Virus record (IMG/VR): IMGVR_UViG_3300007734_000498
Location: 1 to 23,942 of that record
DNA length: 23,942 nt
Direction: 5' to 3' (one strand)
DNA from: a virus
Shown: positions 6,061 to 19,672 of the stretch, one piece after another
How the letters are laid out: every line of letters starts with the position of its first letter
Position numbering within the stretch: the first letter of the stretch is position 1
Notes under the pieces: model-generated
What the model saw: the letters and a program-made list of their open reading frames with translations, nothing else
What the model was told of the DNA's origin: nothing
Databases searched by the model: none
Program-made: the position numbers and the translations under genes

Positions 6061-7005
6061 CTATGCGGCCTCTTGCCAAGTGATTGAATTGTCTTCTAAA
6101 TCCGTCCAATTTTCTGAGCTGTCAGAAACTGGTGTCCAGCTTTCCGAGGAATCAGAAACTGGTGTCCATGTCTCGCTGTTGTCTGATTGCGCTGTCCACG
6201 TCTCGCTGGAATCTGGCACTGCGCCCCAGCCAAAGCCGATCATTGTGCCAACAGCGCAAATTGACTCAATGCCAGTGATTCCAATGGATACGATATTTCC
6301 AACAGTGCCGACTGCGCCTGTTCCAGCAACGCCAGTGATTGCTTGGAACGAAATAACCTCTGCCAACATTGTGCCAACAGCACCAGTAGCAGCATTTCCT
6401 GTTATTGCTTTAGTTCTTGTTGATCCAATTGAACCAGTGCCTTCTATGGCCGCATTGCCAAGCAAAATAGGCGCTGCCAGTATTGTTCCAATAGAACCAG
6501 TTGCGGCATTTCCAGTAACTGACTGAGAAATATTTGGCGTGATTGTGCCGACAGCGCCGGTGAAGGTATTTCCTGTGATGGCCTTGGTGCTGGTGACTCC
6601 AGTTGAACTAACTGCGCCTGTTGCCGCATTGCCGTCTTCTGCAATTGATATTGTCGCCGTTACGCTTCCAACCGACAAAGTTGATGCATTACCAGTGATG
6701 GCCTTGTTTGATGTCGCTAAGACCGATCCAACAGCACAGGTGGAATCATTACCAGTGATGTCAACCGAGACAGTTAGTCCGACTGTACCAACATTGCCTG
6801 TGGCAATCGTTCCATCTTCTTGAATTGATCGGCTAGCAAGTAAATTTCCAACAGCACCAGTAGCCGCATTACCTGAGAGTGTTAAATTACCCTTGTTGTA
6901 AGCGCCAATGCCATATTGACCTGTGCCATAGGGGTATGCAGGTATTTTTATTTCACTAGGTATTGCCCCAAATGTCGTTTGGGAAAATGCGGAAAAGCCA
7001 AACAT
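6061..7005 (-). CDS. Repeat-rich tail or fibre protein
   Basis: This 314-residue protein is built from low-complexity repeats. Residues 1-40 are a Gly/Tyr-rich start (FGAIPSEIKIPAYPYGTGQY). Residues about 41-258 hold some eleven imperfect copies of a roughly 20-residue unit with the core TGNAATGAVGT followed by a hydrophobic strand. Residues 264-313 hold five 10-residue units of the type SDSSESWTPV, and the protein ends WQEAA. There is no signal peptide. A very strong AAGGAGG site precedes the ATG, so it is probably made in large amounts. Repeats of this kind suggest an elongated beta structure in a fibre or appendage. It lies between two fibre-type genes. Repeat-count variation would be expected. 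Confidence 0.75.
   Translation of the reverse strand: MFGFSAFSQTTFGAIPSEIKIPAYPYGTGQYGIGAYNKGNLTLSGNAATGAVGNLLASRSIQEDGTIATGNVGTVGLTVSVDITGNDSTCAVGSVLATSNKAITGNASTLSVGSVTATISIAEDGNAATGAVSSTGVTSTKAITGNTFTGAVGTITPNISQSVTGNAATGSIGTILAAPILLGNAAIEGTGSIGSTRTKAITGNAATGAVGTMLAEVISFQAITGVAGTGAVGTVGNIVSIGITGIESICAVGTMIGFGWGAVPDSSETWTAQSDNSETWTPVSDSSESWTPVSDSSENWTDLEDNSITWQEAA
6067..6216 (-). repeat. Five tandem 30-bp units encoding SDSSESWTPV-type decapeptides
   Basis: Trp codons lie exactly 30 bases apart at 6076, 6106, 6136, 6166 and 6196. Units are PDSSETWTAQ, SDNSETWTPV, SDSSESWTPV, SDSSENWTDL and EDNSITWQEA. Two neighbouring units share the identical 17-mer TCAGAAACTGGTGTCCA on the plus strand at 6122 and 6152, so this block was duplicated more recently than the upstream repeats. 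Confidence 0.85.
6232..6885 (-). repeat. About 11 degenerate copies of a 20-residue coding repeat
   Basis: Within the 314-residue protein, the core TGNAATGAVGT recurs with variants (SGNAATGAVGN, TGNDSTCAVGS, TGNASTLSVGS, TGNTFTGAVGT, TGNAATGSIGT, TGVAGTGAVGT, TGIESICAVGT). Copies are separated by about ten variable residues with alternating hydrophobic character. The copies have diverged at DNA level, so this is an old protein repeat rather than a recent DNA duplication. Confidence 0.75.
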
Positions 7006-8059: not shown

Positions 8060-8515
8060 TTAAGCCAACCTGATCAGGCCGGTGCTTGCATCATTGGTCG
8101 GCATGGTCAGCGTGAACGTGCCAGCAGTCACTGTCTGGCTGCCAAAGGTATGGACGCTAACGGCCTTGTTTGACTGCGTTGAGTTGTAGATCAACACGCA
8201 ATCAAAAGCTGTGGACAAGGTCACCGCAGAATAACTAATGCTGGCGCTGGGTGTCCAGTACGCTGTGGTGCCGCTGGTGGCCGGTGCAGTGGCATTTGTC
8301 ACTGTCACTCCGCCTGCGGTATAGCCTGCTCCAGAAACCTCACCAGTGGCCGTATAAGCCGTTGTAGAGGCATTGATAGTGGCTGTGGTTAGATACAAAG
8401 CCGCCTTCAACGTGTCGGCGGTGGTCGCAGCGCGAACAACACCAGTGCCGAAATTGTGGTGGCCGACTAGCAACTCACCTTTGAAACTGGTGCAGAGGGC
8501 TTGAGTGTTTGCGAT
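8060..8515 (-). CDS. Tail-module protein, probable non-canonical ATC start
   Basis: The only canonical start in this frame is TTG at 8473, which gives 137 residues. Upstream the frame stays open to a TAA just before the ribosome site and reads (I)ANTQALCTSFKGELLVG. I recall related phage proteins starting MANTQALCTSFK or similar, so the true start is probably the ATC at 8515 (151 residues). It sits 7 bases after AAGAAGGG, an ideal ribosome site. The protein is Thr/Ala/Gly-rich and beta-like (EVSGAGYTAGGVTVTNATAP) with the ending PTNDASTGLIRLA. It sits between the adaptor region and the fibre genes, so it is likely a virion protein; its function is unknown. A sequencing error (ATG to ATC) is the main alternative. 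Confidence 0.7.
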   Translation of the reverse strand: MANTQALCTSFKGELLVGHHNFGTGVVRAATTADTLKAALYLTTATINASTTAYTATGEVSGAGYTAGGVTVTNATAPATSGTTAYWTPSASISYSAVTLSTAFDCVLIYNSTQSNKAVSVHTFGSQTVTAGTFTLTMPTNDASTGLIRLA

Positions 8516-8528
8516 GATAGTTCCCTTC

Positions 8529-8543
8529 TTGGGTTATACCCAA
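8529..8543 (-). other. Small inverted repeat before the ATC-start gene
   Basis: TTGGGT-ATA-ACCCAA on the minus strand is a perfect 6-bp stem with a 3-base loop. It lies between the stop of the 63-residue gene and the AAGAAGGG ribosome site of the next gene. It could position or expose that ribosome site, or simply mark the intercistronic gap. There is no T tract, so it is not a terminator. Confidence 0.4.
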
Positions 8544-8544
8544 T

Positions 8545-8736
8545 TCAAGTAATTGATTGACTGATTCCATCAGCGAAAACACTTCGCTTGAGAATCATGT
8601 GGACAGATCGATGAACCAACTCACCATCTAGCCAATACTCTACCCAACTGGTTGTTTCAGTATCGTTGTCAACAGACCCCTCACGCTTTTCCAGCAGTGA
8701 TTCATCCATGTCGCCTTTGGTGGTGGTGATCATCAT
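8545..8736 (-). CDS. Small conserved phage protein
   Basis: This 63-residue acidic protein contains GDMDESLLEKREG followed by TTSWVEYWLDGELVHRSVHM. It has no signal peptide, membrane segment or cysteine. It overlaps the adaptor gene stop by ATGA, which supports a real coupled gene. Small proteins of this type next to the adaptor occur in related environmental podoviruses as far as I recall. I cannot assign a function; a neck or tail accessory role is a guess from position. Confidence 0.65.
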   Translation of the reverse strand: MMITTTKGDMDESLLEKREGSVDNDTETTSWVEYWLDGELVHRSVHMILKRSVFADGISQSIT

Positions 8737-14783: not shown

Positions 14784-15277
14784 GCTATTACTTTCTTCAG
14801 AATAACGTACATAGAGTCTACGGCGCGAGGCAGCCGCAATATCTCATCTTGCGGTAATTTTAGGCTTGCACCGTACTCACTTAGGCGCATCTCTAGATGC
14901 GTCATCTCAAACTTGCTGCCCTTCCAGCCCAAGTACCACGCCCATTCGCAGTAGTACACCCATGATTTTTCATTGAACGCTCTGACGTGTGTCGGGTCTT
15001 GCCATGCGCCATGGCTCAAGTCGTAAGGCACATGAATGTGCATCTCGCCACCCATCTCCAGCAAGTCGCGGCAATTGGTCATGGCCTGCACTAAATTCGG
15101 TATGTGTTCCAGCACGTCAAAGGCCATGATCTTGGAAAACTGTCGGTCGATCTGCATCGGCGCACCAATATCCACCACCCAATCGGCACCAACATCTGCA
15201 CGAATGTCAGCATTCACGCAATCAGGCTTGTAATCCTTGCCGGAGCCTAAGTTAAGTGTCAAACCACTGTTTTGCAT
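14780..15277 (-). CDS. Class I SAM-dependent methyltransferase
   Basis: This 165-residue protein has the Rossmann methyltransferase motifs. LTLNLGSGKDY is motif I (SAM-binding Gly loop), NADIRADVGADWVVDI is motif II, and KIMAFDVLEHIPN with LLEMGGEMHIHVPY are the motif IV-V strands. HVRAFNEKSW is typical of Methyltransf_11-like enzymes linked to glycan genes. It is short but complete at both ends. It overlaps the glycosyltransferase-like gene upstream by 26 bases and the portal gene by ATGA, so the three are likely translated together. The target is not visible; a sugar methyltransferase partnering the neighbouring glycosyltransferase is an inference. Confidence 0.82.
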   Translation of the reverse strand: MQNSGLTLNLGSGKDYKPDCVNADIRADVGADWVVDIGAPMQIDRQFSKIMAFDVLEHIPNLVQAMTNCRDLLEMGGEMHIHVPYDLSHGAWQDPTHVRAFNEKSWVYYCEWAWYLGWKGSKFEMTHLEMRLSEYGASLKLPQDEILRLPRAVDSMYVILKKVIA

Positions 15278-15950
15278 ATTCTGGCCTGTTTTTTCTCAGC
15301 CATGGCATGGCCTGCTGGATCAATCTTTCTCCATCTAAGCCTATCGTCTGGCTGCCAATGTGATGCACATATGACCGGCTTAGGTAATGGTGAAAGCCAG
15401 CCGCGCGTAAATCCTCGCAGTGAACGTCATCTGAGTACCAGTTCAGCGGTGGAAATACAGCCGCGCTCCACGCATCGGCACCAATCCATGCAAAGATAGG
15501 GGATGGGCATTCCAGCGGCACAATTGCGTCTTCATATGGGTACTTGAAGTAGTGCAGCTGCTGATCAAAGGGGTTAGAGCGAATGTTTTGCACTGGCCTG
15601 GCTGCATCGCACCGCGCAGAAACCCATCCAACCGGCGCACCAGTTTCGGCTTTCAGCTGCTTGACATCCTCCATCAGCAGCCGGTAGCTCGTTGGTGTCA
15701 GCACGATATCGTCATTGGCGCAGATCACCGACTCAAACCCATCAGCAAAGGCACGGTCAATGATCTCGTTGTAGTCAAGACCGAAATTGTGCGCCGCACC
15801 AAACACCTTCAGGTCAGCGTCAAAGCCGCCAATGATGGACTCTGGCCCTCGCAAATACACAGGCACTTCGGGACAGTACTCGGCAATGCTTGTGAGCATC
15901 ACCCGCAAACCTTTGCCGTGTACCGTGCTGATGCAGATCGGGGAAATCAA
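15252..15950 (-). CDS. Glycosyltransferase-like protein
   Basis: This 232-residue protein resembles a GT-A glycosyltransferase. The N-terminus is ISPICISTVHGKGLRVMLTS, AHNFGLDYNEIIDRAFADGF is followed by ICANDDIVLTPTS, where the N-D-D is at the DxD position, and FAWIGADAWSAAVFP with WYSDDVHCEDLRAAGFHHYL forms the acceptor side. The start is TTG at 15950, overlapping the stop of the previous gene (TTGA). The first ATG, at residue 18, would remove the first core strand, so TTG is preferred. There is no membrane segment. It is paired with the methyltransferase by a 26-base overlap. Substrate is unknown. Confidence 0.72.
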   Translation of the reverse strand: MISPICISTVHGKGLRVMLTSIAEYCPEVPVYLRGPESIIGGFDADLKVFGAAHNFGLDYNEIIDRAFADGFESVICANDDIVLTPTSYRLLMEDVKQLKAETGAPVGWVSARCDAARPVQNIRSNPFDQQLHYFKYPYEDAIVPLECPSPIFAWIGADAWSAAVFPPLNWYSDDVHCEDLRAAGFHHYLSRSYVHHIGSQTIGLDGERLIQQAMPWLRKNRPEYAKQWFDT

Positions 15951-16471
15951 TCCGCTGACCCGATCTTGATGGTGAGCAATGAATCAGGCTCAGAATCGCT
16001 CTCTTCCGCATCCATCCCCCCATTTTCACCGTCACCGCCGCCGTCACCCTTGTTCGGGCCGCCAACAACCCAAGCATCACAGGTGCGCGTACCGGCGCAC
16101 TTGAAGTCGAATATCTCGCAGTAACCCAAGTCGGCCAGCTTAATCGTTCCCCATGGGTCAGCCTCGCGGCCAATGCCGTCAGCAATGCACTGCTTGACCT
16201 TGTCGGACACGTTAAAAGCCGCGCAGTTACCGCAACGGCTTTGCTTGGCATCATCCACAGACACGTCCCACTGGTCAGCCTTCTTGCTCCAAAAAGCATC
16301 ATTAGGCAGCGCCGGATTCTCAGGGCCGTAACCCGCGCTGGTGATCGCCTTGGCGCGATTCTTCAGATTCAGCGTCACGTCCTGCGTTGGAGCAGGGCAG
16401 CTGGCGCTGGTGTCCTGGTAGCCAGGCTTTTGATCCATGGCCTGCGCCATGGTGCGTTGCATGGTAGCCAT
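15947..16471 (-). CDS. Cys-rich phage protein of unknown function
   Basis: This 174-residue protein has a cysteine cluster in its middle: RCGNCAAFN (C80, C83), C95, LGYCEIFDFKC (C118, C125) and TRTCDAWVVGGP (C131). Spacing C-x2-C-x11-C-x22-C resembles a metal or Fe-S site; I considered a HiPIP-like protein but cannot confirm it. The last 35 residues are acidic and Gly-rich (GDGGGDGENGGMDAEESDSE). It lies between the small basic protein and the glycosyltransferase-like gene, with TAATG and TTGA junctions. Similar Cys-cluster proteins occur near terminase/portal genes in other phages as far as I recall. Function is unknown. Confidence 0.72.
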   Translation of the reverse strand: MATMQRTMAQAMDQKPGYQDTSASCPAPTQDVTLNLKNRAKAITSAGYGPENPALPNDAFWSKKADQWDVSVDDAKQSRCGNCAAFNVSDKVKQCIADGIGREADPWGTIKLADLGYCEIFDFKCAGTRTCDAWVVGGPNKGDGGGDGENGGMDAEESDSEPDSLLTIKIGSAD

Positions 16472-18953: not shown

Positions 18954-19637
18954 TTAATTCGCTGCATTCTTGAGCCTTCCTGCGAGTTTGGTGTCGAATT
19001 TCTTTTCCATGACTTCATTGTCATCGAATTTCAAGTCGTTTTCAAAGTCATCAAATCCTGTTGCACCGCCGAGCTTGAAGTCTGGCGCTGGTTTGAATGC
19101 TGTGACTTTGGCCGTTGGGAATAGTGCTTTGATCTTGATGACCTGTTGCATACGCTCATCGGCCATCAGTGCCTCGATCTCTTCCATTGCCCAGATATTC
19201 TGGTTGCTGATGTCTTGACGCTCCCGCTGTATTGCCACGGCCTCGTTGACAGTTCTGACAATCACCATAACCTGGCCGTTTTGCATTTCCCACTCAATCC
19301 TTGGGATGCTGTCGCTGGCTGGCGTTATGCCTTGATCGGTTGCCCACTGATCCAGTACGCCATACGCCCTGATCATTCCCGCCAGGCTTGAATCGAATCT
19401 CGCCTGATCCTTTGCCGTGACTGCTTGCTGCAATCTGGCGTTCTGAATCCAGAATTTCTCTCTCAGTCCACTGTCAACTAAAGTAATCAGTCGATTTTCT
19501 CCCCATTTCCTGTCGCTGACTGCTTTGGCAGCCTCCAGTTCCACCAGTTTGGATTGAACGTAAATCGTCCAAGGGTCTGCTTGTGGACTTGGACTCGTTG
19601 CTGGTGGATGCTGTCTACTCTTTTGCTTTGTTGCCAT
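18954..19637 (-). CDS. Hypothetical protein between replication and packaging genes
   Basis: This 227-residue soluble protein starts MATKQKSRQHPPATSPSPQA. I chose ATG 19637, since AAGGAG lies about 7 bases upstream; an in-frame TTG at 19655 would overlap that ribosome site. Residues 25-130 are helical (YVQSKLVELEAAKAVSDRKW, NRLITLVDSGLREKFWIQNA) with a strand pair near IEWEMQNGQVMVIVRT. The C-terminus is Phe/Asp/Lys-rich (FDDFENDLKFDDNEVMEKKF). There are no enzyme motifs or cysteines. The repeat array lies directly upstream, so this protein could bind or be controlled by those repeats, as origin-linked initiators often are. That is inference only. Confidence 0.75.
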   Translation of the reverse strand: MATKQKSRQHPPATSPSPQADPWTIYVQSKLVELEAAKAVSDRKWGENRLITLVDSGLREKFWIQNARLQQAVTAKDQARFDSSLAGMIRAYGVLDQWATDQGITPASDSIPRIEWEMQNGQVMVIVRTVNEAVAIQRERQDISNQNIWAMEEIEALMADERMQQVIKIKALFPTAKVTAFKPAPDFKLGGATGFDDFENDLKFDDNEVMEKKFDTKLAGRLKNAAN

Positions 19638-19672
19638 TTCTGTTCTCCTTATCAAAATTCACTGAAGCGTCT

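Follow-up and report, generated by a model that had tools for sequence, protein, structure and literature searches.

In Escherichia coli, the infC gene for initiation factor IF3 starts with AUU, and this start codon serves the autoregulation of IF3. Both AUC and AUU pair poorly with the CAU anticodon of the initiator and are disfavoured by IF3 (PMC10158994). Free-standing homing endonucleases of the HNH and GIY-YIG types are found in T-even phages (mobE, segA-segG) as optional genes between conserved phage genes, and spread by recombination with their flanks while their neighbours must stay expressed (PMC2988022). They carry ribosome-site hairpins, there located upstream of the endonuclease (PMC2988022), and alleles that have acquired a free-standing endonuclease are assumed to be resistant since the cleavage sequence has been replaced (PMC12724721). 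The hidden ShiLan HNH in a phage methylase is an insert that is neither an intron nor an intein, and the invaded alleles show a change in a flanking residue (PMC11855218).

At the locus described here, a virion gene of a freshwater phage starts with ATC. We estimate with a probability of close to nine in ten that this codon forms the right end of a mobile HNH cassette, which was inserted at the junction of codons 1 and 2 and has since been deleted in the phage studied. The sequence analysed, referred to as the window, is the 23,942-base virus record IMGVR_UViG_3300007734_000498 (positions 1 to 23,942), an SU10 type virus according to its matches to the SU10 capsid, portal and adaptor. The virion gene matched the phrog_644 profile (E 1.3e-13), a family of unknown function. 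The features of the locus are as follows:

8060-8515, minus strand: virion gene of the phrog_644 family, with a predicted tail-fibre-adaptor-like fold, putatively read from the second ATC to give the protein fM-ANTQALCTSFKGELL...
8513-8515, minus strand: ATC start codon, the presumed last codon of the right end of the homing cassette
8516-8518, minus strand: upstream ATC codon, counterpart of an ATC that often precedes the ATG in native leaders; dispensable (AAG in L676)
8523-8530, minus strand: Shine-Dalgarno-like AAGAAGGG of the putative substitute leader, conserved in cassette ends
8471-8473, minus strand: TTG, codon 15, an ordinary Leu codon (CTG, CTT, CTC or TTA in relatives)
8545-8736, minus strand: conserved 63-aa gene upstream, with its stop codon TGA (8547-8545) now within the presumed cassette remnant
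8513-8549, minus strand: probable scar, a remnant of the cassette 3' end (CTTGAATTGGGTATAACCCAAGAAGGGAACTATCATC) with one mismatch to the occupied allele L609
8529-8543, minus strand: predicted RNA hairpin UUGGGU-AUA-ACCCAA of the cassette 3' end, with covariation in 34 distinct leaders

Elsewhere in the window, positions 6241-6880 hold eight diverged 40-nt repeat units, mostly at a spacing of 60 nt or multiples thereof, inside a 314-aa gene (6061-7005) that adjoins an S74-peptidase tail-fibre gene. Three ORFs in the packaging region (15252-15950, 15947-16471 and 18954-19655) had no PHROG or Pfam match.

The frame that follows the in-frame stop codon TAA at 8536-8534 (minus strand) reads CCC AAG AAG GGA ACT ATC ATC GCA AAC ACT CAA GCC CTC TGC ACC AGT TTC AAA and contains tandem ATC codons at 8518-8516 and 8515-8513. 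The second of these aligns with the ATG of the homologues and lies 7 bases behind AAGAAGGG. No NTG codon (ATG, GTG or TTG) is present in this frame between the TAA and TTG 8473, the codon at which a mechanical ORF caller placed the start. The initial annotation had seen both of these features in the sequence and proposed the ATC, rather than the TTG, as the likely start of a tail-module protein; it had also stated that related phage proteins begin M-x-x-T/S-x-A-x-CTSFK, and suggested a comparison with their N-termini.

Relatives were gathered by protein searches of IMG/VR, which identified hundreds of sequences and yielded 316 loci after removal of duplicates. The start codon was scored in all but 6 of these, and the 310 scored loci comprised 227 NTG (214 ATG, 10 GTG and 3 TTG) and 83 AUC or AUU, hereafter AUY (71 ATC and 12 ATT, at the same codon as in the window). 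The overall AUY share is inflated, since part of this set was collected with AUY-specific patterns; searches that were blind to the start codon gave a share of 22 among 246 distinct alleles (9%). Most relatives have the N-terminus MANTQ[AS]MCTSFK, which bears out the motif given in the initial annotation. The codon pairs ATC-ATC, ATT-ATT, ATT-ATC and ATC-ATT were all found, as was AAG-ATC in L676, which points to the second codon of the pair as the decisive one. A start with ATT is coupled to Ser (TCN) at codon 2 and one with ATC to Ala (GCN), for example in L031, L654 and L646, with L653 (ATT GCT) as an exception, as if codon 2 sometimes travelled with the cassette end.

The initial annotation had also considered a read error or a recent change from ATG to ATC. 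Such an isolated event lies only one base away from ATG, but is so improbable that it can be set aside, given that many metagenomes together supplied 83 distinct AUY alleles, that ATT variants occur and that an allele (L002) 96% identical to the window gene also starts with ATC. The allele is instead old, recurrent and horizontally spread, and the comparison of alleles confirms the ATC start as real, neither a read error nor a private mutation.

We calculated pN/pS for codons 2-6 and obtained 0.127 for AUY alleles, 0.07 for the presumed deletion scars described below and 0.18 for NTG alleles, low values that indicate that these codons are read as protein. An in-frame ATG, GTG or TTG between the last stop codon and the AUY was absent in 76 of the 83 AUY alleles, the window included; seven HNH-carrying alleles had an in-frame TTG 33 nt upstream. 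Codon 7 is ATG in 60 of the 83 alleles, which could give some truncated product, and is not ATG in the remaining 23, among them the window (CTC). A first AlphaFold model of the window protein had a pLDDT of 56, and a deeper alignment of 103 sequences yielded a model with a pLDDT of 91.8 and an ordered N-terminus, in which residues 3-6 form a strand and residues 8-14 a helix. Both elements would be removed by a start at TTG 8473. The selection on codons 2-6, the lack of an upstream NTG in 76 of 83 alleles and the confidently predicted N-terminal fold together argue for translation from the AUY, and we infer that ribosomes start the virion protein at the second ATY.

The predicted fold resembles parts of phage tails and suggests a beta-rich, tail-adaptor-like protein, in keeping with the assignment to the tail module, though the likeness is no proof of function. 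VIA-align gave a Z score of 11.9 to part of a baseplate protein of Klebsiella phage Lilla1 (9f4a_A0). The fibre-tail adaptor of Ralstonia phage GP4 (PDB 8jou_a) was matched by Foldseek with a probability of 0.93 but an E value of 0.09, and VIA-align 2 gave a Z score of 8.3 over 114 residues at 10% identity. A sequence search of the PDB identified no relatives. In many relatives, the second gene upstream encodes another phrog_644 protein (MSIVQTQTTSFKKELYQGIHDL...), which is a paralogue with a normal ATG start; in L654 its gene occupies the stretch from about 1100 to 690 nt before the virion gene.

Initiation from AUY is expected to be weak because IF3 disfavours AUC and AUU (PMC10158994), and is presumably weaker than from AUG. 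A Shine-Dalgarno-like AAGG is located about 8 nt before the AUY codon, and the energies of its duplex with the anti-Shine-Dalgarno sequence were -5.3 to -5.6 kcal/mol for scars with the hairpin versus a mean of -6.0 for NTG alleles. These energies are about equal, and only the scars without a hairpin had stronger values; we therefore rejected a stronger Shine-Dalgarno sequence as an offset to the AUY. A phage-encoded unusual initiator tRNA was likewise rejected, since no tRNA genes were found in the window or in 12 long relatives.

In most AUY loci, a gene of about 155 aa is located between the conserved 63-aa gene and the virion gene. Its product is an HNH endonuclease with matches to PF13392 (HNH_3; E 7e-9), zf-His_Me_endon and the PHROG HNH families, and the active-site motifs MHxCD and CxNPxHL are present in all 38 distinct copies. 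The gene is intact, with an overall pN/pS of 0.31 that indicates purifying selection. All 53 HNH-carrying alleles have AUY starts, and the HNH gene is directly upstream of none of the 220 NTG alleles for which the upstream sequence was long enough. Because some of the AUY loci came from AUY patterns, we ran a second test in which the HNH protein was the sole query, and all 68 matches before the virion gene were AUY (56 ATC and 12 ATT), including the divergent L658 and L676, which have other leaders.

On the virion gene tree, from which the 5' end was left out, the start class changed 56 times and the HNH state 42 times (303 rows), as expected for horizontal spread independent of the host gene phylogeny. 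Among 29 supported independent pairs that differed in HNH, the start codon went along in about 23 and in the opposite direction in none (p about 2e-7), with the reservation that the tree is approximate because of mosaic recombination.

In four NTG loci (two same-contig pairs), another gene located 1.48 kb upstream is accompanied by a different HNH (33-34% identity). In L499 (554-1015) and L504 (561-1019), a second HNH gene, with an identity of about 33-34%, lies right before the ATG of a 217-aa gene (NYIAVCTPARD...), which is another HNH insertion at a start codon, here with the ATG retained. We thus rejected a rule that the neighbours of HNH genes generally have non-ATG starts, and such insertions do not generally bring an AUY. 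In annotated phage records with HNH proteins of 38-44% identity, the neighbouring CDS were ordinary at the level of annotation. An intron as carrier was also rejected: no Rfam match was obtained in five loci, and the insert, consisting of the ORF and about 30 nt, is too short for group I or II introns.

The insertion junctions were examined in pairs of occupied and empty alleles. On the left side, L651 (HNH, ATC) and L358 (no HNH, ATG) differed by only 5 mismatches in 1946 nt, which include the native leader TTAATGAAAGGAAGCTGCA and the ATG, and on the right side 531 nt were identical, counted from the start of codon 2. The HNH frame in L651 starts on the native ATG, and occupied and empty alleles begin to diverge at the third base of the start codon. 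These alignments place the cassette of about 490 bp precisely at the junction of codons 1 and 2, with an uncertainty of one shared GC. Both empty and occupied forms of this one site were found in several further backgrounds, where the HNH start is on a leader that matches the empty relative (L643/L365, L672/L350, L620/L523, L671/L424, L655/L393 and L647/L542). Among 45 HNH starts, 11 are GTG and 2 TTG, and some lack a Shine-Dalgarno sequence, a decay that is expected once the virion gene has ceased to depend on the native leader. The leader alone has been exchanged between L408 and L409, the genes of which are 99.4% identical, and between others.

We propose that an HNH homing endonuclease (about 155 aa, PF13392) inserts directly behind the start codon of the virion gene, ahead of codon 2, and would then be translated from the native ribosome site and ATG of that gene. 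The 3' end of the cassette, consisting of the hairpin, AAGRRGGAACT and ATY, would provide the virion gene with a new leader and an AUC or AUU start, at which the initiator tRNA would begin the virion protein. The endonuclease would later have been deleted in 30 distinct alleles, the window among them, along with the native ATG and, except in the hairpin-less scars, the native ribosome site, so that the AUY stays as a scar. The position of the cassette, the capture of the ATG, the exclusive linkage to AUY, the scars, the purifying selection on the N-terminus and the pyrimidine-only third base are each demonstrated at the level of sequence comparison.

Selection for a low-efficiency start, which would keep the virion protein scarce much as AUU does for infC, had been offered in the initial annotation as the reason for the ATC. 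The poor pairing of AUC and AUU and their disfavour by IF3 (PMC10158994) and the conserved pyrimidine would suit such a purpose, but nearly identical or identical protein is made from ATG in close relatives (L358 versus L651, L409 versus L408) and 227 relatives have NTG. The AUY state tracks the HNH cassette or its scar and not the protein, which makes deliberate inefficiency improbable; lower expression is likely a consequence of the AUY, and not a demonstrated purpose.

The cassette ends share a hairpin of 5-6 bp located 5' of AAGRRGG. In 34 distinct leaders, 99.4% of the cells were paired and two pairs had changed on both sides (C-G/U-A with a U-G intermediate, and G-C/A-U), and the covariation score was reached in none of 500 shuffles. 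The hairpin is dispensable for AUY because it is absent from L658, L676 and the hairpin-less scars; candidate roles are the end of the HNH mRNA, a standby site and repression. A short leader peptide that overlaps the hairpin was rejected, being unconserved and broken in the L194-type leaders. The leader occurs only once in the window, and a search of IMG/VR with the leader pattern placed all but 4 of 64 distinct matches before the virion gene family, and a repeated promoter-like or regulatory element was rejected on these grounds.

The loop of the hairpin often holds the HNH stop codon, and in some leaders the reading frame stays open across the hairpin, as would be expected if ribosomes came to the AUY, as an internal Ile codon, from a frame farther upstream through a frameshift, bypass or readthrough. 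Yet the upstream stop codon occurs in all three frames relative to the virion gene, which excludes a programmed fusion, and the scars lack an HNH frame from which reading could continue. In the window, an in-frame TAA lies 8 codons ahead of codon 2; 76 of the 83 alleles lack an upstream NTG, and codon 1 is exactly at the ATG of the homologues, leaving such a fusion with a very small probability.

The AUY alleles without HNH number 30, with the window among them. Nineteen, again including the window, retain the hairpin end of the cassette and have stop-to-start distances of 29 to 72 nt, while 11 have 'TTTAAGGRGAANTATCATC' (11 nt) and no hairpin. The latter are as expected of a deletion that runs from the AAGG in the native leader to its counterpart in the cassette end and would have removed the native ATG with the endonuclease. 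Stop-to-start spacing was mostly 8-12 nt in empty alleles and 482-506 nt in occupied alleles, versus 11 or 29-72 nt, with many different lengths, in scars. The window retains about 37 nt (8549-8513) that agree, apart from one mismatch, with the L609 HNH cassette at its 3' end, and the HNH gene, the native ribosome site and the native ATG are all missing; judged by these matches, the window is a deletion scar of an HNH cassette. Neither this mobile-element origin nor the upstream hairpin at 8543-8529 was part of the initial annotation.

The third base of the AUY codon changed 10 times between C and T on the gene tree and never to a purine, whereas 64 of 97 changes at five nearby third positions were between purine and pyrimidine. 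At a rate of two-thirds, the chance of none in 10 is about 2e-5 by simple arithmetic that assumes independence, and something thus seems to select against ATG at this codon. From the junctions and the substitution pattern, we infer the HNH target to be NTG|GCNAAYAC. A G at the third base would rebuild the sequence of the empty site beside GCNAAYAC at the right junction, and C or T would not; the simplest reading, with odds at or slightly above even, is self-immunity, in which the change from G to a pyrimidine keeps the right junction from re-forming the target. We give even odds to the start codon being an immunity allele, in which the G of NTG is within the endonuclease target and AUC or AUU is selected, even in scars, at a cost to translation initiation. 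If true, scar phages would resist cleavage by HNH-carrying co-infecting phages.

It is also possible, if rather doubtful, that the AUY is carried by recent descent in the cassette ends, without selection by immunity or expression. The ends do share descent, and a return from AUY to ATG requires a transversion, but transversions are common at the neighbouring third positions, and the divergent HNH lineages L658 and L676, with their other leaders, also have ATC.

The result is a structural gene in which AUC and AUU starts have arisen many times at the population level and from a clear cause, an HNH gene taking the start codon of its neighbour, and it ties the choice of start codon to conflict between phages. 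Natural pairs in which the same protein is made from ATG or ATC allow the cost of a near-cognate start to be measured. For annotation, ORF callers limited to ATG, GTG and TTG will truncate the virion gene, as at TTG 8473 in the window, or mis-start it in genomes with the cassette or its scar. The literature searched, in which subscription journals were largely missing, contained no previous description of such an arrangement.

As in infC, an AUY start is conserved in a functional gene, but its product is a phrog_644 virion-type protein and not an IF3-type autoregulated one, a homing cassette would be the source of the AUY, and ATG is common among the alleles. The T-even endonucleases (PMC2988022) are alike in their optional presence, spread and dependence on expressed neighbours, whereas the insertion here is exactly between codons 1 and 2 of the downstream gene, takes over the ribosome site and AUG of that gene and leaves it with a non-AUG start. 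In alleles with free-standing endonucleases the cleavage sequence is assumed to be replaced (PMC12724721), and here the replaced base belongs to a start codon. The ShiLan insert (PMC11855218), similarly carried by neither intron nor intein, is located inside the methylase frame, while the host gene at this locus is given a new leader and a new start.
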